From contig NC_134524.1 in assembly GCF_027942865.1 (NCBI RefSeq), forward strand, positions 30,356,536-30,420,535: 64,000 nucleotides of DNA, written 5' to 3'. Positions 32,048 through 54,834 of this stretch are shown in pieces. Under the pieces are notes generated by a model that saw only the letters and a program-made list of their open reading frames with translations, was not told the origin of the DNA and did no database searches. Position 1 is the first letter of the stretch. Each line of letters starts with the position of its first letter. Made by a program: the position numbers and the translations under genes. The stretch comes from Odontesthes bonariensis (taxonomy: Eukaryota; Chordata; Actinopteri; Atheriniformes; Atherinopsidae).

Positions 32048-35000
32048 TCACTTCCTGTGTGTTTCTGCAAAACAAGTCAGAAAAGGTTGACAAATTAAAA
32101 AAAAAAAAAGAATAGTGTTAAATAGACAAACAACACTAATGACTCTACCATTCAGATCAATAAATAAATAGCTTAAATGTAGTGGAAAGCAAGAGATCAA
32201 GTTCCCAAATTGGGGTTTTAACATTAAAATGTTTAGAAAGAAAAATAAACAATAGAACCACATAACTGGGAGGGGGGGCAGGGGTTGAGGAGGAAAATAT
32301 ACAGCCAGATTGGGAAAATCTTACACAAATGGTGCTCAAAGTAAGTTATACAGTATCACGTTTCAGTGCAGCTCATATGGACTGCTTGAACTACCTCACA
32401 GGCTTACCTCTATAAGACTTACAAAAGGGGCTAAGTAAGTGCAAGACTGAAAAGCACGACCCTAGATGAAAGGTTATGACAGCTACAACTTTAAAAGCTC
32501 GAGTAAAGTCAGCAAAATGGATGGCATGCCTATCTAATAGTAAAATATATAGGTCATAAAACAACTCAAACCCCCCCAAAATGTGCCACTTCAACAAATG
32601 CTATATTATGGATTTTTACATCTTGGCACTTGACAGTTAAAACAGTTTGTTAAAACATCTTCTCAACTGAAGAATTTGATTACAATTGATTTGAACTGTA
32701 TCATTCGAATCTCATTTGACCCCCCCCCAACCATGAAAGGGAAAAAGATAGTTAGTGGAGGCCAAATTAGTGCTGAAAGGAGAGTGGACAGAAATTAGAC
32801 AAGATTATTGCAAATGATGCCGTCTTGTCTCTGTGAGCATTGCGGGTGAAAAGTCTGATGCGGACATAAACCGAGGCAAAACCCAATCTAACTGACAGGA
32901 GTGGTCACAGTGGTCTCGTTTCACCTCCACAGTAGGAAATGCCTCCTCAAGACGTCATCGCCTCCAAAGCGCTTATGATTGGGGTTGATGCAGGAATTTA
33001 TTTAGCTAATTCTATCATTTTTTTAATAATAAAGTTAATAAACTACAACCTTTTCTTTTTTTATCAGGCCAGATAATCTTAAAGTTAATATCCATGTCAC
33101 ATCAATGGATTTTCTCAGAACCTTCATACATGCTTTAAAATGACTTCCTTTCTGCCACACCACACAGTTCAGACGTATTATATATTCCCTGGGACCTGAT
33201 CGATCAAAATACTTTTATTAATAAAATATCCCCCCTTTCTAAATGAATTAATTTAGCCTATTAAGCATTTCTGCTCTGTATGCATACGTTTTGCCCAACT
33301 AGAGTCACTATGACAGACATGAGCTTTAGCCTCCTTACTCCCTACATCAGCCATGGTACCCAACTCCAACATTTTAAAAGTTATTTTGATGAATGAGCAT
33401 TAAGCAGTTTCTAGAGTCTAATGTAGAGACCTGTTCACTCTTGTCACAGACAGCATTTCAGCATGTTAAGAAGAAATTCTAACTTGCAACGATGGTCTTC
33501 AGCCCACAGAAGTAATGATGGGTTACTGAGTGCACTAGTTCAATGAGAACTAACAGGAGAGATCATATTTCTCCAGTTTTAGCTTCTCTTCATTGGCTCC
33601 CTGTTAAATTCAGAATAGAATTTAAGATTCTTCTCCTTACGTATAAAGCTCTTAATGACCGAGCTCCATCATATCTTAAAGATCTCATTAAAAGATATTT
33701 TCCTAACAGAGCACTTCGTTCCCAAACTGCAGGTTTACTTGAGGTTCCCAGAGTTTCTAAAAGTAGAATGGGAGGCAGAGCCTTCAGTTATCAGGCCCCT
33801 CTCTTGTGGAATAAGCTGCCAGTAAATGTCCGGGAAGCAGACACCCTTTCCACTTTTAAGACCAGGCTTAAAACTTTTTTTTCTGATAAAGCTTATAGTT
33901 GGATGGCTCAGGTGATCCTGAAACATCCCATAGTTAAGCTGCTATAGGCCTAGACTGCTGGGGGGCCTCATCTGTCACACCTTTCCTCACTTTACTCTCT
34001 TTTTCCCCCGTTTAATTTCTCAAATGATATTATGTACATGTGACATTATTGTGGTGATTAACTCGTGTTTCCCTGTTCCAACAGATATCCTTTGAATGGT
34101 GTTACAGTGTCCCCCCCCTTTCTGTCTTCTCAAACCCCAGCTGGTCGAGGCGGATGGCCACCCTTCCTGAGTCTGGTTCTGCCAGAGGTTTCTTCCTGTT
34201 AAAAGGGAGTCGTTTCTCTCCACAGTCGCCTCAGGCACGCTCAGGACGGGAGATTGGACTGAGTACAAGTTTTTTGTAAATTATGATTACAATTAATTGA
34301 ATTCCAATTGGCTTGAATTGGACTTTATTATTGAAGTGCCTTGAGATGACATTTGTTGTATTTGGCGCTATATAAATAAAAATGAATTGAATTGAACTAG
34401 GTTTTGAGATTTAAAAGTCATACATTGTCCACTGTCTTGATACTTCCTAAATGTAGGTTATGGTATTTAATATTGATTCCAACCAAAGTTTTAACAACCA
34501 TAACTAGCCTATGAACGATATTTTAAAATGTACCCTACACGCGTAGACTCCCTGAAGGGACAGCGTACCTGTCAGAGCCCCGCTGTGCTGCTGCAGCTGG
34601 CTGGTGAAAAAGCGCTCCCGCTGAGACACCTGCTCGTCCCAAGCCTCCAGTATCCGCTGCTTCTCCTTGGGTTCCAGCGTCAGTGTGTGGGGGTGGGTCT
34701 CATCAATGTGGGCCCTCACTCCCTCCAGGTTGTGAGAGTACTGCAGCTCCCCACACACCATACACACCAGCAGCTGGTTGAGAGGATCGTAGTCCATGAG
34801 GTAGCGGCTCCTCCACACACTGTCTGAGAGAGCACCTTCCTCATCGTTATTATCCTCATAGTCATCAAACAGAAGCTCAGACTCATCTGCAGAAGTGAGA
34901 CAAAACATTTATGTGAGCCACCTTCACCATTTTTCTGTGCATTCTTTAAGGTTTCAAGAGACATATTTGATACTTCACCTTCTACCGGTGCTCCATAATT

Positions 35001-38000
35001 GGAGAATGGAAAAGGTTCTGGGTCAGGGTCCAATGACATGCTAAGAGAAAGAGATTCCATTATCATCCTAAGTGGGGCTGACAGGAAAAATACCATAAAG
35101 AGACAAAACAAGACCTCCCACCTCATCAGATGTTCTGACTTCTCAGAGGGGTTCACCCACTGACCAGAGTCCTACAGGATTAGACAGAGAGAACAAAATA
35201 TCTGGCTTTGAGAAAAAGTACTCTACAGCACTAACCCAGTTCACCATTTTCCACCTATTCAGTATGACAACGAAATAAATAGAATCTTATATCGTTTTTC
35301 TAATTTAGAGAATGACAAATCGTAAATTGTAACAATGAATGCATGTTAAAACTTTATGGAATCACAAGAAAAGATCAAGTCTACATCTTCTCTTATCCTT
35401 TCTCTATAGCTGTTAAGTGCCTCTATGTTTAAATTACATTACATTACATTACGGTCATTTTGCAGACGCTTTTATCCAAAGCGACTTACAATTAGTGTGT
35501 TCCACATCGGTAGGCAAAAGAACTTCAGGTCACAAGAAATCACAAGTGCATTTCCTTCCAAAACCAAACAGCTGAGAGCATAACTAGTGCTCGAGTAAGT
35601 GCAGTAAGTTAGGTACCTAGACAAATGGGAAGACAATTTAGAAAACAAAGACAATTTAGGAAACTGTCTTTGTTTTCTAAATTAGGAAAAAGTGTATTGG
35701 GGCTAGGCTAGTGGCTAACCCAACCCAGTCGGTTATCCCCACCATCATACTGGCCAATGTACACTTTTTGCACAACAAGCTGGGCTACATCCATCTACTT
35801 CGCTCAACATCAAAGGCTGTGAGAGAACCCTGTGTTTTGGTATTTGTGGGAACATGGCTCAATGATAGCGTTCCAGACTGCGCCATTCAGCTCGACAGGC
35901 TAACATGCTACAGGGTACACAGAGCGCTCGTGTTTATTTTGTGCAACTTTCTAAAGATTTTGCTTTCATTTATGATTACTGCAGCTCTTCAGTTGCTTTG
36001 TGTGTTGCTTGATTGTCATTGTCATCTCTGGTTAGTTCTCTCTGTGGTGGAATTGTGCACCTTTGTAATTCTTATAAAAGTGAGGTCCACATATATGTTT
36101 GACAGTGAGTGCATAATTTTGCCTGCTTACCTCACAAAATTGGAATGAAAATGTGACTGAGGCAGACTCTCAACTTTATCTTTTTTTAAAACCAACCGTG
36201 AATTAGAGCTGAAAGAAAAAAATGCTATAGTTCTGCAAGATTACACACCATGTCAATGCCAAAACAATTATGGACATGGTTGTAAGTCTCTTAGGTTAGT
36301 TTGTGTATGACTGTTGTCATTTTGCATGTCTTTATTTCTATTCAATTAATTTTTTAATAAGAAATATTAGCGACTTTTTAAAAAAGCCCAGGGGACCATG
36401 GAGCCAGAAGACTTCTAGACCTCTGGACATGTGCCCATTCATTATGATATTCCTAGTAGAATCACTCAGTTTGAACTGCATTCTGCCATATATGGTCTGA
36501 AGGAACTTTGTTATTTATCCAGTGATGTCATCGGTGTAATCATGGCTTGGATTTGTCAATATAGACTTGTAATGGAAGACATGTGTTACAACTGGGAGTA
36601 AGCAGCTTACAAACAGACAGCATCTGGCAGTAGTATTGCAATTGGAAGATCTAGTATTGCTAGAACTTGATCCATACTAGTATACCATTTTCAGAATTCA
36701 GTCAATAAAGCAAAAAAAAAATCTGAGTTTGGTTTCTGTTAGTTTTGTCTGGTCTATTTTCGAATGCACGTTTTCTTGCAATCTGTCACTCTCTAACTTG
36801 GTATCAAGGTTTATGTTTGGCAAAGAAGTCTTGAGTTTCCTCTTTTCAGTATGAACAAAACCTAAGTGGTGTTTGATTATGGGTAATCTGTGTTTTGATA
36901 ATTAAATTAGAACATAAACAGAAAGTCTGCAGACCCCTTCAAGTTTTCCACAATTTTCCATGTCATGTTTCGAACTCTAATTTTTGAAAAATATTCTACA
37001 TGCTTCTAACAATTTGACTTGTGTCCACCGGTCCCCAATGGAGTTGTGTCATGGAATGGTTGTGGGTAAAGATACTAGAGATATTCTGCTGAATGCAAAG
37101 TGCACAAAAACACAGTTTTCCATTGTTCATCAGTAGAGGATTAGCAAATCTGGCTGTTCAGTCAAACTCAGTCAATGGCAACGTCTAACTCAGGTGGCAA
37201 ACCAATCATGAATGAGATCCAGTTCTTTGATAGAGAGCTGCACTGAAACTCAACCATTAGTGTAGCACTGCACCGATCAAACTTTTAAAGAATAGTGGTC
37301 AGACAGAAGTCCTTCCGAACTGAAAGGTACTGACAATCAGCTGTTCTAAAAGGCACCAACATGACACCAAGACCACATGAAGCAGAATCATCTGGTCTGA
37401 GGAAGAATTGAAGACTGAGCTAATTGCCAGTTGTTATATTTATGCATGACGGAAACCAATCTTTGAGTACCTGATTCATAACTATCCCTAAAGTCAAATG
37501 TAGTGATGGTAGCATTTTTCTGTGGGGATGTTTTTCTGAGACATGGGCCAGAAGACTAGCCAGGCCCAGGATAGAGTGAAAGATAGATGCAGAACAAAAC
37601 AGTGCAGTCAAAGGTGAAAACCTTTTTCCAGAGCACTCAAGATCTCAGGCTGGAGCAAAGGTTTACATTTTAGCAAGACAATGACCGAAGAACCCAGTTC
37701 TGTACCTGAATCTAGCAGAGCATGTCTGCAAAGATCTTAAAATGTGCACTCAAACTGTCCATCCAATGAGGATGAACTTTAATATTTCTGTCTAGAATGG
37801 GAGAAAGTTTCGAGAAAAAGAAGTGCCAAACCTTTTTTTTCCCAAGAAGACTTGAAGCTGTCATTGTGGCATTAGAGACACCAGTGACCACAGTCAAATG
37901 CATTCCAGGGGCCAGAGCGGGCGACGCAGAATCCTATTTAAAACTGCTGGCTAAGGATAAGCGTAAATACAGTAAAATAGTTATTCACGTTGGCGGTAAT

Positions 38001-41000
38001 GACCCCCGGTTACGCCAATTAGAGTTCAGTAAAATTGATATTGGCTTGGTGTGTAATTTTGCCAAAACAATATCAGACTTCGTAGTTTTCTCTGGACCCC
38101 TGCCAAATCTGACCAGTGATGGCATGTTGATTTCAACCAAAGTTTTAATCATGACATGGTTGGGCTACATAGATAATTGGCAATCTTTCAGGGGAAAGCC
38201 TGATCTGATTAGAAGAGACGGCATCCATCCCAGCTCTCATTTCTAAAAATGTGGCCGAATTTATTAGTTATCCCAAAACATGACAACCCAGGGTTGAGAC
38301 CAGGATGCAGAGTTGTAGTCTTACACACTTCTCTGCTGCCCCCCCCCCACAAAAAAAACCTTATAATGACTGTGTCTGCTCCTAGACCACCGAAATTAAA
38401 TAAATCAATAAACACAAGAGGAGCACATCCGGAAAAGCTCCAAAAAATTAGGACAAAAAAATTTACTGCACAAAAACATAAAACTATAAAATGTGGTTTG
38501 CTGAATATTAGATCTCTCCTTTCCAAGTCTGTCAGTATATGACTTGATTTGTGATCATCATATTGATATATTTTGTCTTACAGAAACCTGGCTGCAGCAG
38601 GAGGATCATGTTAGCATTAATGAAGCAACTCCCTCTGACTGTTTAAATGTTCACGTTCCTGGAACCACAGGCAGAGGAGGAGGAGTGGCAGCTATTTTCA
38701 GATCAGAGTTACTCATCAGTCCCAGACCCAAGATTAGTTTGAGCTCTTTTGAATCTGTGATTCTCAGTTTTTCCCACGCAAAGTGGAAATCCCAGAAACC
38801 TCTTGTGTTTGTTGTTGTGTATCGTCCACCTGGGCCTTATTCTGAGTTTCTGTCTGAATTCTCAGAGTTTTTATCCCAGTTAGTGCTGAGTACAGATAAA
38901 GTCACTGTAGTGGGTGACTTTAATATTCATGTAGATGTTGAAAATGACAGCCTGAATATGAACTTTAATTCTATATTAGACTCTATTGGATTTTCTCAGA
39001 GTGTACACAGACCGACTCACTGCCTTAATCACACCCTTGATCTTGTGCTGACTTATGGCATTGAGAGTGAACAGTTAACAGTGTTCCCTCATAACCCTGT
39101 CTTAACTGACCATTTTTTGATAACCTTTGAGTTTACATTACTTTACTAAACAGCTTCTGAGAAGAAATTAGAATGTGTCAGAGAGTGCTGGAGTGAGATG
39201 TAAAGAATTAATTTATGTGCAAATATTACAGAGGACAGCTACATGAACTCCAGCAACACTCGACTCTCTTGTTGACTGCACTATAGTTTCAATGCGTACA
39301 GCACTGGACAATGTTGCCCCTCTGAAAAGGAAGGTAATCAGTCAGAAGAGGTTGGATCCTTGGTATTATTCACAGCTGTGTGCTTTAAAGCAGAAGAAAG
39401 CTGGAGAGACAGTGGCGTTACTCTAACTTAGAAGAGTCTCAATTAGTCCTGAAAGATGGTCTAATAATCATCCCACTCTTTTCATGTGTCGTTCCACGAT
39501 GGTGGAATGACCTACCGAGCGCTACCAGAACAGGGGCGTCCCTGTCTATCTTCAAGAAACTCTTGAAGACCCAGCTCTTCAAAGAGCATCTCTAGCACTT
39601 ACCCTATACTTCCCTACTCCCTCTATGTCTGCACTCTAGCTCTACACTGTCACCTCTGACTAGTGGTTTTCCTTTTATGTAGCTTATTGTTAGCTTTGAT
39701 GTTAGCTGTGATGTTATATCCTCATTTGTAAGTCGCTTTGGATAAAAGCGTCTGCTGAATGCATAAACATAATAACATATAAGAAAGCCCTTCGTAAAGC
39801 TAGAACTGCTTATTATTCATCATTGATAGAAGAGAATAAGAATAATCCCAGGTTTCTTTTCAGCACTGTAGCCAGGCTGACTAAGAGTCCGAGCTCTGTT
39901 GAGCCAGGTATTCCTTTAACTCTCAGCAGTGATTATTTCATGAGCTTCTTCAACAATAAAACTGTTTCGATTCAAGAGAAGATTGATGGAGTCCTTCCCA
40001 CTATTATCAGTGATGTATCATCAAGTACAGCAGCTTTAGAAGTATCTTTAGAACATGATTTGTATTTAGACGGCTTCTGCCCAGTTGATCTCTCTGAGCT
40101 AACAACAGCAATAGTCTCTTCTAAACCATCAACTTGTGTTTTAGACCCAATCCCAACCAGACTGTTCAAGGAGGTTTTCCCCTAATTCATCACTTCCATA
40201 TTGGATTTGATCAATCTGTCTGTGTACAGGATATGTACTTCAGAATTTTAAGGTAGCTGTAATTAAACCTTTACTTAAAAAACCTACTCTAGATTCAGAA
40301 GTGTTAGCTAATTATAGACCTATATCCAATCTCCCTTTTATGTCTAAAGTTCTTGAAAAAATAGTTGCAGCTCAACTTTGGGATCATTTCCACAGAAATA
40401 ATCTGTTTGAAGAGTTTCAGTCAGGATTCAGAGTGCATCATAGCACAGAAACCGCACTGGTGAAAGTTACTTAAAGATACTTGTGTAATTTTACAAAACT
40501 CCCCTAGAACACACGTCTTTGCTTTGCCACTGCAGTATATTGTGTATCTAGTGATGAAAACAAAATAATTCCTTATTTTTTTAAAACTAGACTTTTGAAA
40601 GGCTCTGAAATCTTTTCATATGCACACTGAAACTTGATGTCTATAAACTTTAGAACAAGCTTTGGATATACCTTGGCTGCTCTCGTCCGTTTCTGAAGAT
40701 CCTGGGAAGGCAAGATGGGCCTCCAGTTGCTGAAGGCGCTCCTTGTAGAGATTCCTTTGTCTCGAATGGCTTTCCTAGCTCTCTGTTCCTTTTTTTTAAT
40801 CCTCCAGTACTCCCGTTTCCTCCTCAGAAAGTCCTCCTCAGATTCCCCTGGAACAGGTTTTGGAGGAACCAGGGTGCTGATAGGCGCCAGATTGGTGGAG
40901 GATTCTATCATCATTGTTGGACTCGGAAGTGGAGCGCAAGGGAGTTTTCTTGGACCAAGGGTAGAATTTGGACTTTGGCCAGGGGATTCAATAGGTTGCA

Positions 41001-44000
41001 GGTCGATGATTGACAGTGGGTTATCTGGGGGCTTGAGAGTAGGGAGTGAAGGGGCTGGATCGACTTCTGTGCTTTGAGAGGTCCAGTCTTGAGAACGGTG
41101 TTGAGATTCAGAAACTCTTGCAAAGTTAGTCACATTCTGTGAAGAGCCAACATTCATATTGTTCTTTTCTCTGCCGGTGACGGGCAGATTGACTTGGAGT
41201 GCGTCAGGTGACTGTTCAGCTGTACATGATGTTTGGCGAACAACCAAGACTCCAGTGATGCAGGTCGCTGCAGCCACAGAAGTGGCAGACAGTCTGGGCT
41301 GGGGGGCTGGTTTGGTTTGACCCACACCCTTAAGAGTGCTGGTAATAAGTCCTGGAGTCTGCAAGACAGTAATAAAGCATTAACAACGGATTCTTGCTTA
41401 GCAGAGAAAAATGTTTATAGATGTCAGGCAACAGGATTTCTCTCAAAACATGCACAAACTGTAAGTGTTTGCACCTAGTGTTAAGTGGGCCCCTTTCAGT
41501 CACTCCCCCCCTCTATTTTTGCTGTTCAAGTGTCAAATGCCAAGAGAGGTTTGTGGTGCATTGATTCAGGTTTCAGCTGGAGGGGACACTGTCTGTGCTT
41601 ACATGGCTGGTCATGCGATGTCCTCAGAAATCAATTATTTAAATGATCAGAATTTCCTAGGCTCCTTTTTTTAATTTTAATTTGTGATGCAGGCCCTGGA
41701 AAACTGGGAAACAAAGTGCTAACTCATGTGTCCTTTTGGCCCTTTACTTGGATATCCAAAACAACTCCTGCTTATAACTAGCCAATGTGCCCAAGTTTCC
41801 AGAGAATCAAAGGTTTCTTTCATCTCTGGGCAGACATGTTCCTGGGGTTTCTGCCCAGATCCCAGGACAATCAGGAAACCAAAGGTCAAAAGTTTAGAAA
41901 AAACAATGTATTTATGAGACTCAACAAATTTCAAGTCTCAGTCAAGTCGCATGGGAGCTCATCGCCCTTACTGTTTTTAAAACAAATGAAAATCAAGAGG
42001 TTCTAGGAGCAAGTAAGTAAGTAATGTTTGTTGAAACGGTTTAGAGATCAAAGAATTCAGAACTAGTGAATTGTGCGAAAAACTAACATTGCCTTGTTTG
42101 TCATTTTAGTGTCACTGTAGCACAATGAAGTGATAGTTGTGGATGTTACTTAAATGGATCTTTTTGACAGAATTCTCTCAGAAAAAAAACAGAAAAAAGA
42201 ACTCATCAAATGTCTTTTTTTTTTAGAAATACAGATAAATACTAATGTAATAGAAGCTGGCAGGCAAAGGGAAAGGGTCTCTAACTTTCCTTAATCATTG
42301 TCTGACAGATCTAATCAAAACGGTACAATACTGTATCAGCCATTTCAGACATTTATAGTACAGTATATCATACTTGTTACAATATTTTTTACATAATGAT
42401 CAGCATCTACACTGAAAATATACATCATTGCCATGGATTACTTCACCTGGGTGTTTCTTGGAATAAGCCAACTGCTGCATTCTCCATGTCTCTCTCTCTG
42501 CCTGGCCTTTAACCTCGCCCTCTGCTGCCTCTTCATCAGCTTCCAGTACTCCCTCTTCCTCTGCAGGCTGGTCGAGCCACTGTGCTCTGTCACCACACTG
42601 CAATACCTTTGTGCTGATGGCATGCCGTTGTCTTGTGCCTGACACTGTTGTTCACAGTGTTGCTGCTGTGGGTGCAGTTGGTCCACAGATGTATCTGGGA
42701 CGTGATGTAGCTTTGGTGGCTCTGGGGAACAGCACTTTTGATGGCCTCTGGTTTTGCTGCAAAGTCTCTGGGTTCTGCGTGGTGATGTTGGGCCATCGGA
42801 TGCTTCCATGGCAAGGTTCACTGTAAAGGTTGAAGGGGTCTGGGGTGGGTGCTCACAGTTGGAATGCACGATCACGTCAGAGGTGGGAAGAGGTGGAGGT
42901 GTCTCACTACTTTGTGGTGAATTCTTGAGTCGAGGGCTTGGTGAGTCTTTCTGTGCCAAGACATTGCTATCTGGCTGCCAGCTTTTTATCTGCAGTGTCA
43001 GGTCAGCAGCAATAGGTGCCATGTCATCCTTTTCAAAAAAAAGCTGAGACAAATTGGGCTTTATATCCCGCTCTGAAGCATCCTCTTTTGTCTCCATAAG
43101 TAAATCAGTCTGTACGCTTTTACACTCTGCAACTGTGCTGAGTGATTCCTCCAGGAGTTTCTTCATCGAAGCCACGGCTAGAAGAGTGGTAGCTTGGCTA
43201 TCTGTGCTCAGAGATGGGTCAGGCTCTGGCTGAGGTGCAGGAGATGTAGGTGGGGAGGTTGAGAGTTTGATATCTGGATAGATGGCCTGCTCTTGTGGAG
43301 AATTTAGGTCAACAGCTGGCACAGACTCGCTCTCCTGTTTTATCTCATTTGCTTGTGGCATAAAAGGAATGTGGCTGTTTGAGAGAGGTTGTGCATCTCC
43401 TCTACAATTTGCAAGACTTGTGCCCAGTTGGCCAGTGGCTGCCGATTCCTGTTTCTGAGCCTTCCTCCTTTGTAAGGATGCATTGGCCCTCACTTGTAAG
43501 ACATCCTGCTTCAGTTGAACAGCACGAGCTGCTCGCTGCTCACGTTTCTTTATTCTCCAGTACTCCCTCTTTTTTACCATCCTTTCTTCCTCTGTGAGCG
43601 CTGGATCTAGAGACAGAATTGATGGTGATGGTACACTACTCGAGATGACCATTTTCCTTACACAGCCACCAAAGTTGGATCCTGCCGCTGGTCTTGTTGA
43701 AGGTGCATGTTGAGGGGACTGAGGAGTTAGTGTGAGCTGACTTACATTTTGGATTGCTAATGACTGGGAATTAGGAATGGTTGTGATTTCAAGATGAGTC
43801 TGTGGTTTGATTGACATTAATCTTAAAGATTTTTTGACTAACTGCACAGCATGAGAAGAGGCTTTTACTTGGGATGGATGGAGTGGAGGGGAAAGTTGGT
43901 TTGTCCTGATGGGAGATATAGCTCTCTGTTTCATATTAGTTTGATGCTGTGGTTGTGTCGCAGGGTTATTCTTAGAAACTCCATGCAGTTCTTCTTCCCC

Positions 44001-45680
44001 CTTGTTTCCTGCTGCGTTTTGATGTTCAGGACTCTGGGGGATGTTAACCGTCAGTGTCCCATCCTCCTTGATGAACCCGCCAAAGGTCTCAGAGGCATGG
44101 GTAAGGACACTTTCTGTTGAGCGTGTCAGTGCCCTTGCCTTCCTCATTTCTTCAAGGATTTGCTGGTAACGTTTTACTCTTCGCATCAAAGCGTCTTTAT
44201 CCTTCAACCGGGATTTCATTTCCACTGACAGCTTAGCTCGCTGTTCGCGCTTTTTAATCCGCCAGTACTCTCGCCTTTTGGCTATTATCTGCTCAGGTGT
44301 GTCACTGGGTTCACTTTTGTGCATGTCTCTGGTACCAAACATTGAAGCCATCGAGGGAGGTTTACATCTGAAGTTTCTCTGATTCATAAAATTCTTCTGC
44401 GTCTCAATGAATCTTTGTCTTGGTGTTTTACAACGTGCAATTCCTCGGATAACATTGGAATAATGTGTGTAAGCATGAACTTTTCTCTGTGGTTGTGCTG
44501 GCTTTTTTACTGAGGCCCAGTCAATTGCGATGTCTGTCTGCGATACCTTTCTCCCGTGCGGCTTTTGTACAGTCATCTGATCCATTTGCAGGTCAGTTAC
44601 AGCTCCAGTGGCGGCTGCTTTTGGCGGTTTCTTAGTATCCCTTTTGATAGATGGAAATGATGCATTACCTCGAATAGAACACTGCTTTTGAGCTGCTCCT
44701 CTCAAAAACAACTGAGGTTGAAGAAGTACCGAGTTGGCCACAAGTCCTGTTTTCTGTGCTGTTAGCCTCTGAAAAGACACGTTTCCGCCCTGCGTTTTCT
44801 CTCTGACTTTAGCTATCCGAGCTGCCAGCTTTGCTCTCTGCTCTCGTTTTTTGATCCGCCAGTGCTCTCTGCGCTTGGCTGCTTTCTCTTCGTCGGACTT
44901 CGGGGGAGGCTGTGCACTGCCAATACCTTTAGCCCTTTGCGTAGTGACCGAGGCACTCTTTGTTCCACTTTGAGGTGTCGTGTTTATTGTTTTGCCTTCT
45001 GTCTTGACAGAAACACGGCCACATGGAGACACGAGAGTCACATCTAATGCACAAGCTGCATTGGATGCGAACACAGATCGGGTTTTGGGAACTGTGCTCT
45101 GCATAGACACGCATGGCTGAGATGCTGTTTTAGTGGAGCTGCCATTGGAAATTCTGGTCATTGTGACGGGAGGCACTGAGGAAATGATGTTCAGCTGGGC
45201 TCCATTTAATGAGGGTGTGGAAACAACTTTGCAACCACTTCTCATTGATGTTTTTTTTACAATGGCTGTGTTGCCCTCAGCTTTTTTGGAAGGTGATATG
45301 AACTGTAAAACTTTGTTAACTTTCAGTGGCTGATGCCATTCCTTTTGGTTGTCATCACCCTCAAGTGAACTTTCCCCAACTGCGTTTCCACTCTGCGATC
45401 CAGTATTGTACGAGTCATTGCCACTCTGAGAAAGAGGGGACAAAACAGCAAACGAGTCTGACAAACTGGGATTCACCCCTGCAGAGACATATAGGTGTGG
45501 GAGCTTTCCTCCTCTGCTGTCTGGTGTCGGCTTCCCTCTCTGCTCTGACAGGCGGGCCCTCTGCTCTCGTTTCTTGTTTCTCCAATATTCTCTCTTTTGG
45601 GCAAGAGTGGCATCATCATACTCCGAGGCTGGCCGGTAGCGATGGGACATCGAGCCAACTTTACTTTTTTTAGCTGGCAT
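32048..45680 (-). CDS. spindoc: SPINDOC-like protein with six basic REYWR-type repeats and one zinc finger (1455 aa predicted)
   Basis: Coding exons on the minus strand: 45680-42447, 41358-40672, 35171-35122, 35040-34979, 34886-34569 and 32064-32048 (stop). Junction phases are 0, 0, 2, 1 and 1 and all agree; the total is 4368 nt. Donors and acceptors are good consensus (for example CAG/GTGAAG at 42447 and a TTTTGCAG acceptor before 32064). The C-terminal exon encodes [20 protein letters not shown] and a C-x2-C-x14-H-x4-H finger from about residue 1386, followed by [19 protein letters not shown]. This resembles my memory of the human SPINDOC finger, a protein that binds SPIN1 and blocks its histone-mark reading. 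The gene is divergent from zfta, as I recall for human SPINDOC and ZFTA. Odd: the mammalian protein is under 400 residues, so most of this one (Ser/Thr/Pro/Gln-rich with six basic motifs) has no counterpart I know. The gene model is strong and the orthology is inferred. Confidence 0.75.
33571..34397 (+). mobile_element. L2-type LINE 3' end, copy B
   Basis: Near-identical to copy A at 1100-1960, in the last intron of the spindoc-like gene and antisense to it. The reading frame 33543-33947 is open: [60 protein letters not shown]. It ends TTGGCGCTATATAAATAAA plus a TGAAT repeat. The close identity with copy A suggests fairly recent activity. Confidence 0.85.
34569..35171 (-). CDS. spindoc: Zinc-finger exon cluster of the spindoc-like gene
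   Basis: Three closely packed exons, 35171-35122 (50 nt), 35040-34979 (62 nt) and 34886-34569 (318 nt), are separated by introns of 81 and 92 bases. The two small ones are too short to stand out alone but fit by phase: the reading is [16 protein letters not shown], then [19 protein letters not shown], then [17 protein letters not shown]. The acidic run leads straight into the finger (Cys codons at 34764-34762 and 34755-34753). After the finger comes an [17 protein letters not shown] helix. The 34569 donor is CTGACAG/GTACGC. Confidence 0.85.
35430..35640 (-). mobile_element. Second-family LINE tail, reversed
   Basis: An ATTAC repeat (from about 35438) runs into TGCAGACGCTTTTATCCAAAG, the complement of the tail seen at 39728-39765. 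It is a truncated 3' end on the minus strand. Confidence 0.6.
35695..35935 (+). pseudogene. LINE endonuclease fragment
   Basis: The reading frame gives [20 protein letters not shown], then [20 protein letters not shown], then [12 protein letters not shown], matching the start of an apurinic-type endonuclease in fish LINEs (the usual TETWL is changed to VGTWL). It stops being recognisable after about 35935. Confidence 0.6.
36905..37880 (+). pseudogene. Decayed Tc1/mariner transposon
   Basis: The nucleotide order follows Tc1 transposase DNA: CATCTGGTCTGA (37390), then GATGGTAGCATTTTTCTGTG with GGGATGTTTTTCTG (37505-37540), then GACTAGCCAGGCCCAGGATA, then TTTTAGCAAGACAATGACC, then AAGAAGACTTGAAGCTGTCA. 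Numerous indels break the frame. The 3' end is cut at about 37880 where the LINE begins, so the LINE probably landed in it. Confidence 0.65.
37881..40475 (+). mobile_element. L2/CR1-group LINE with esterase-type ORF1, truncated and broken
   Basis: ORF1 remnant 37881-38246: [30 protein letters not shown] and [16 protein letters not shown], the blocks of an SGNH esterase. ORF2 from about 38365: [12 protein letters not shown], then [41 protein letters not shown] and LTDHFLI, the endonuclease motifs in order. Then [12 protein letters not shown] and, in another frame, the RT start ([44 protein letters not shown]). It stops near 40475 before the RT catalytic motif. Stops at 38541 and 39147, plus an insertion, kill it. 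It lies in the largest intron of the spindoc-like gene, antisense to it. Confidence 0.85.
39455..39779 (+). mobile_element. LINE 3' end nested in the larger LINE
   Basis: Inserted between KDGLII and [14 protein letters not shown] codons of the host LINE. It encodes the end of a reverse transcriptase ([16 protein letters not shown], stop) and a tail TAAGTCGCTTTGGATAAAAGC followed by TGAATGCATAA. Its tail matches the reversed fragment at 35430-35640. Confidence 0.75.
40672..41358 (-). CDS. spindoc: In-frame cassette exon of the spindoc-like gene with the sixth motif
   Basis: The exon is bounded by the acceptor TGTCTTGCAG (ending 41359) and the donor AAG/GTATAT (exon end 40672). It is 687 nt, exactly 229 codons, and both borders are phase 0, so it could be skipped without changing the frame. 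It encodes a Pro/Ser/Thr-rich stretch and then an acidic lead ([10 protein letters not shown]) into [16 protein letters not shown] near residue 1257 of the full protein. Leaving the donor unused would run on for about 30 residues to a stop at 40575-40573. Confidence 0.8.
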
Positions 45681-45860
45681 GCTATCGCAAGCTTGGACAG
45701 TCCATCAGTTATCATCCAAAAGTAATGGTCTTTCTTTGTCCCAATGAATAAAGGTCCTCAGTCCAGATTCCTCATGGTTGTTAACCTCATAGTGTCCTCC
45801 TCTTAGATGCGGTTAAGCAGTTGTCAAATTTATCCGGCATCACATTGGTACGCAGGTGTC
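42447..45860 (-). CDS. spindoc: Large exon of the spindoc-like gene (1078 codons plus 5' UTR)
   Basis: An acceptor (GTTTTTCAG) ends at 45861, so the exon runs from 45860 with 180 bases of 5' UTR before the ATG at 45680. The N-terminus is basic ([13 protein letters not shown]). Five copies of the motif begin near residues 29, 267, 467, 703 and 1039: [56 protein letters not shown] and the divergent [14 protein letters not shown]. Most copies follow a short acidic lead ([14 protein letters not shown]). Spacers are low-complexity, rich in Ser, Thr, Pro and Gln, so probably disordered. Reading through the donor at 42447 adds only Val-Lys before a stop at 42440-42438, so intron retention would give a 1080-residue protein with no zinc finger. 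The motif is lysine/arginine-rich and predicted helical; DNA, RNA or chromatin contact is a guess. Confidence 0.85.

Positions 45861-49050: not shown

Positions 49051-54834
<5,784 letters not shown>

Follow-up and report, generated by a model that had tools for sequence, protein, structure and literature searches.

A constrained six-copy basic motif and a SPIN-DOC zinc finger in a predicted 1455-residue protein of the fish Odontesthes bonariensis

The 64,000-nucleotide stretch of Odontesthes bonariensis DNA analysed here (the window) carries, on the minus strand between 45680 and 32048, a predicted gene whose six exons can be joined across five GT-AG introns into a frame of 1455 residues followed by one stop (4368 nt spliced). 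The 1455-residue reading proposed in an initial annotation of the same DNA was thereby recovered (Table 1). The large first exon lies within an open frame of 1088 aa (42438-45704) and contains no Pfam family above its cut-off. Read by eye, upstream stops and an acceptor-like site that puts the exon start near 45860 leave its ATG behind a 5′ untranslated stretch. Exon phases are compatible across the model, and the five donors are among the best-ranking 3.3% of minus-strand GT sites, a figure that must be read in the knowledge that these donors were chosen because they fit. A search downstream of the finger for a longer last exon gave five candidate frames of 45-72 residues, none of them Spindlin-dock-like by eye. 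Divergently from the motif gene runs a ZFTA-like gene with four zinc fingers, and reticulon, menin and ECSIT genes are further neighbors. Fish protein databases may well list the motif gene as uncharacterised. Within its intron 2, on the opposite (plus) strand, LINE-like endonuclease and reverse-transcriptase frames were recognized by eye (37776-40474).

Table 1. Coordinates of the features at the locus, counted from the first base of the window (/ marks an exon boundary)
Feature	Position	Strand	Details
Large coding exon	42447..45680	-	residues 1-1078, motif copies 1-5; ATG at 45680; donor CAG/gtgaag
Coding exon 2	40672..41358	-	residues 1079-1307; begins and ends in phase 0; acceptor ttgcag/, donor AAG/gtatat
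Short exon 3a	35122..35171	-	50 nt; placed by splice sites and phase only
Short exon 3b	34979..35040	-	62 nt; placed by splice sites and phase only
Finger exon	34569..34886	-	placed by splice sites
Proposed last coding exon	32048..32064	-	17 nt, ...ETHRK and stop; placed by acceptor gttttgcag/ and frame; least secure exon of the model
Motif copy 1, core RE..QRA	45555..45593	-	residues 30-42
Motif copy 2	44832..44870	-	residues 271-283
Motif copy 3	44235..44273	-	residues 470-482; within predicted long helix
Motif copy 4	43530..43568	-	residues 705-717
Motif copy 5	42516..42554	-	residues 1043-1055; most divergent; [14 protein letters not shown]
Motif copy 6	40777..40815	-	residues 1260-1272, in coding exon 2
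SPIN-DOC zinc finger (PF18658)	34633..34818	-	about residues 1368-1429; E 3.3e-27; 94.9 bits in whole-genome search
ZFTA-like gene, four fingers	50318-54834	+	PF18658 at 50693, 51855, 53017, 54550; each finger in a separate open frame
Reticulon neighbor	locus L039		Reticulon, E 4.7e-15
Menin neighbor	locus L042		Menin, E 2.2e-52
ECSIT neighbor	24.9-29.9 kb		

The predicted protein contains six copies of the motif [KR]RE[YH]W[RK]xxK[KR][EQ]QRA, with an invariant core R-E-x-W-x3-K-x2-Q-R-A. All six copies reported earlier were found again, the conserved RE starting at most four residues from the earlier figures (at 30, 271, 470, 705, 1043 and 1260). Their description as nearly identical suits five of them better than it does copy 5. 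A 29-base degenerate DNA pattern, broad enough to cover all six copies, gives seven exact matches in the genome of 945,434,557 bases, six being these copies and the seventh an A-rich place on C18; a backward control pattern matched once in the same genome, and both genome matches of a stricter pattern lie within the motif gene. The occurrence of the six copies is beyond chance and, within this genome, confined to one gene. Neither a paralogue nor a retrocopy was found in the genome by protein searches at E 1, in which the large exon retrieved, besides itself, motif 6 and two weakly matching places (E 0.47 and 0.81), and exon 2 retrieved itself and three motif copies.

Relatives of the motif were also sought outside the genome. 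In Pfam, the two motif exons matched nothing above cut-off (GPR128_N, at E 0.15, was below its cut-off), and the six motif segments, searched at E up to 10 with HMMER filters that drop most weak matches, gave three weak unrelated families and no bZIP or AT-hook. NCBIfam, a prokaryote library, had no yield for the motif exons. The 67-residue stretch around copy 3 had four matches in the PDB, of which the best was BAG-1 at E 0.16, and a profile of the six copies matched no PDB sequence. Viral contigs searched with the large exon returned seven pattern stretches and prokaryotic genome contigs searched with the motif alignment 30, none confirmed in either set and none matching the exact DNA pattern. 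In the full-text literature searched, the sole match to the motif letter strings was an unrelated coral Fat1 peptide. A homeodomain-like reading was considered and rejected, as the W-to-RAK spacing expected of a homeodomain does not fit by eye.

Between copies, 168 of 210 residue pairs (80%) are identical over the 14 core columns, as against 31/165 and 26/180 in the flanking bins beside the core and 21/270, 30/375, 29/450 and 45/750 in bins further outward (6-19% overall). As a stand-in for the dN/dS test proposed earlier, codons were compared among the copies within the genome. Of 153 core pairs that share a degenerate residue, 93 differ in codon, and the gene's own codon usage predicts 92.4 if codons are drawn independently. 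Since the codon differences match such draws, the synonymous sites keep no memory of a common origin while the residues stay. It follows that the copies are of old date and under constraint rather than recent duplicates, a conclusion of which we are highly confident. The earlier suggestion of selection acting on the motif is in this way supported from within the genome. What the codon and residue pattern shows is age and constraint, not function, and it is compatible with convergence.

The five spacers separating the copies (175-314 residues as cut) consist to 39-53% of S/T/P/Q/N/G. Their earlier characterization as low-complexity does not hold in a strict sense, since only 0.8% of 40-residue windows fall below 3.2 bits of entropy (mean 3.62). 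A charge-hydropathy index called two of the five disordered; judged from composition, the spacers would be mostly unstructured. The six 24-residue motif stretches carry a net charge of +0.17 to +0.33 per residue. Structure prediction took in copy 3 alone, with the six copies as alignment, and gave one helix spanning residues 8-69 of the model, with a block-mean pLDDT of 96-97 over the motif; because pTM was 0.45, no tertiary fold is claimed. We infer that all six copies are helical. An S or T stands nine residues before the conserved R in five of the six copies, and a D or E two residues after that position also in five, both features being present in four; S/T followed by D/E is a pattern common at helix caps. 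The invariant positions do not clearly lie on one helix face, for which support is weak: in a helix-face test of the seven positions, 196 of 1716 placements were equal or better, and the best single angle was 95 degrees (289/5000 shuffles), with 518/5000 at 100 degrees. Copy 3 leads on to a helix, predicted at about 60 residues (44106-44318, minus strand), that may be a coiled coil; after the other five copies the sequence is less similar than after copy 3.

That the 3′ part of the gene encodes a SPIN-DOC finger, as the initial annotation had it, was confirmed by the match to Pfam PF18658, a finger common to SPINDOC, ZFTA and transposase genes. Its ligands C41, C44, H59 and H64 are invariant in an alignment with the four ZFTA-like fingers. 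Compared with the PDB by sequence, the finger had four matches (best E 0.14), and its model (mean pLDDT 77.2) had 143 Foldseek matches at E 10 and none at E 0.001. Alignment with ZFTA-like fingers 1-4 gave scores of 139, 134, 124 and 145, and alignment with a presumed sequence of the human SPINDOC finger gave 135 with 28 of 64 residues identical; this human sequence itself scored 106, 131, 101 and 112 with ZFTA-like fingers 1-4. Since the scores of the window finger are 124-145 on the ZFTA-like side and 135 on the SPINDOC side, finger similarity alone favors neither.

By position, orthology to SPINDOC is likely. On human 11q13 we take the neighbors of SPINDOC to be ZFTA and RTN3, with MEN1 in the same band. 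The ZFTA-like and reticulon neighborhood expected of SPINDOC is present in the window; ECSIT, which presumably is not part of the human neighborhood, misfits that order. A literature text search for the ZFTA/RTN3/SPINDOC gene order returned nothing relevant. The SPINDOC identity claimed earlier is supported by the ZFTA-like and reticulon neighbors, on the presumed human order, whereas the dock peptide was not found and the finger similarity does not decide. Descent as a SPINDOC orthologue is, in our judgment, somewhat favored, the estimate having been lowered because of the scores against the ZFTA-like fingers; the best reading would be a divergent SPINDOC relative.

In human SPINDOC, the SPIN1-binding part has been mapped to residues 219-305 (PMC7878818) and the SPIN1-binding motif to 251-293, while residues 115-165 interact with the PARP1 DNA-binding domain, for which DNA competes (PMC8568969). 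The available portions of PMC8568969, PMC10400593, PMC7878818, PMC8795269, PMC7941712, PMC8442334 and PMC8270879 mention neither a fish SPINDOC form nor the motif, and a literature text search for teleost spindoc gave no match. For the SPIN1 Tudor-3 docking segment (human 256-281), a presumed 26-residue peptide, of which the first 19 residues are identical to PDB 7cna_B, had no genome match at E 10 in a search run without a positive control. Across 144 kb its best score was 32, equalled or exceeded by 5 of 12 shuffles. Because the protein model stops 26 residues past the finger domain, the SPIN1-binding part is missing from it. The evidence lends no support to the predicted protein acting as a Spindlin dock. 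Spindlin genes do exist in the genome, as PF02513 has thirteen matches at four places. Exon 3b (34979-35040) encodes LDPDPEP, which we take to occur in human SPINDOC too, there after the finger, so that the order differs.

Joining of the motif exons and the finger exons on one mRNA is predicted, and fits the phases and the splice sites, and the finger probably belongs to the same protein as the motif array. Alternatively, there could be two genes, a motif-array gene made of exons 1 and 2 and a separate short SPINDOC-like finger gene starting near exons 3a and 3b: the link is made by splice signals only, these two exons are short, and from in-frame ATG codons where the two meet a short finger protein could be translated. 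However, the exon 2 donor is usable, its phase 0 fits exon 3a, and the next AATAAA comes only at 38265; since this signal is absent from the minus strand between 43554 and 38265, an early transcript end within intron 2 is not favored. We regard two genes as unlikely, though deserving of some weight. The array itself might have been ascribed to a recent functionless internal duplication, a sequence being repeated within one gene, but the residues are retained though the codons look independently drawn, and identity in the outer flanking bins is down to 6-8%. On these grounds recent duplication was rejected and has next to no probability.

The leading reading, to which we give even chances, is a single protein that is a multivalent nucleic-acid or nucleosome binder, with a flexible chain carrying six basic helices and one SPIN-DOC finger. 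Given the strong basic charge of the copies and the finger beside them, the target would be DNA, a nucleosome surface or RNA, and binding of nucleic acid or nucleosomes by the motif itself seems slightly less than an even proposition. Every copy would bind the same kind of partner, six weak contacts would together bind or bridge chromatin tightly and multivalently, with targeting or a protein contact contributed by the finger. Against this reading, no common helix face is clear, and neither Pfam nor the PDB yielded a relative of the motif from which its binding target could be read. Alternatively, rather than binding nucleic acid, the motif may serve as a short helix on which a protein partner docks, in six-fold use as with the BRCA2 BRC repeats. 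Besides the basic residues, all six copies keep E, W, Q and A invariant, which points to a specific surface and not to charge alone, but all six copies are positively charged and the motif has no known partner; protein docking is a possible though clearly less than even reading. Clusters of K and R in every copy would also suit redundant nuclear localisation signals. Such a signal, however, has no need of the invariant E, W, Q and A, and one copy would be enough for import; localisation signals alone were rejected because of this invariance, and are improbable.

The likeness of the array to the BRC repeats, whose binding partner is known, lies in short conserved motifs between long unconserved spacers; it is an analogy only, and no sequence relation is claimed. 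From STPR repeat proteins, with their tandem 23-residue repeats, the array differs in that its copies are dispersed. SPINDOC (C11orf84, Spindlin interactor and repressor of chromatin-binding) shares with the fish gene one SPIN-DOC finger and the ZFTA-like and reticulon neighbors, but the fish protein has about 1300 residues with six motifs ahead of the finger, and mammalian SPINDOC is not known to have the repeated motif. ZFTA (C11orf95) has a finger of the same family, with four fingers as against one finger match in the motif gene, and the motif pattern has no match inside the ZFTA-like gene. The adjacent plus-strand gene agrees with ZFTA in finger number, four being predicted for ZFTA (PMC8795269).

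More tentatively, the multivalent-binder reading may be extended to a history in which a lineage-restricted helix motif, undescribed in the sense of having no Pfam family, PDB sequence or text match in the literature searched, would in its six copies make up a chromatin-binding array, multivalent and of old date, joined to a SPIN-DOC finger. Fish SPINDOC would then be a chromatin scaffold, of which mammalian SPINDOC retained only the finger and the Spindlin dock. SPINDOC is tied to Spindlin1 histone reading and PARP1 activity and ZFTA to ependymoma, and the role of the finger that they share is not well understood. With its constrained six-fold array, a fish member would offer a natural test of what SPINDOC and ZFTA proteins bind, and would supply a new short motif family to characterise.

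In the genome at large, a search with PF18658, in which 150 of 779 candidates were scored, gave five matches above 80 bits, all in the window, the next being at 55.2. Four of the 145 lower-scoring loci were inspected, and all four were hAT-transposase-like by eye, with two DUF4371 matches that were both below the Pfam curated cut-off. The transposase-like genes thus share the finger family with the motif gene, at 55.2 bits or less, but contain no match to the motif pattern. A 2.7-Mb region (C3:33192642-35898021) holds 28 of the 150 scored matches, each at 47.4 bits, and 22 of these 28 form opposite-strand pairs 32-33 kb apart; the appearance is that of an extensive array of duplicated units bearing a transposase-type finger.
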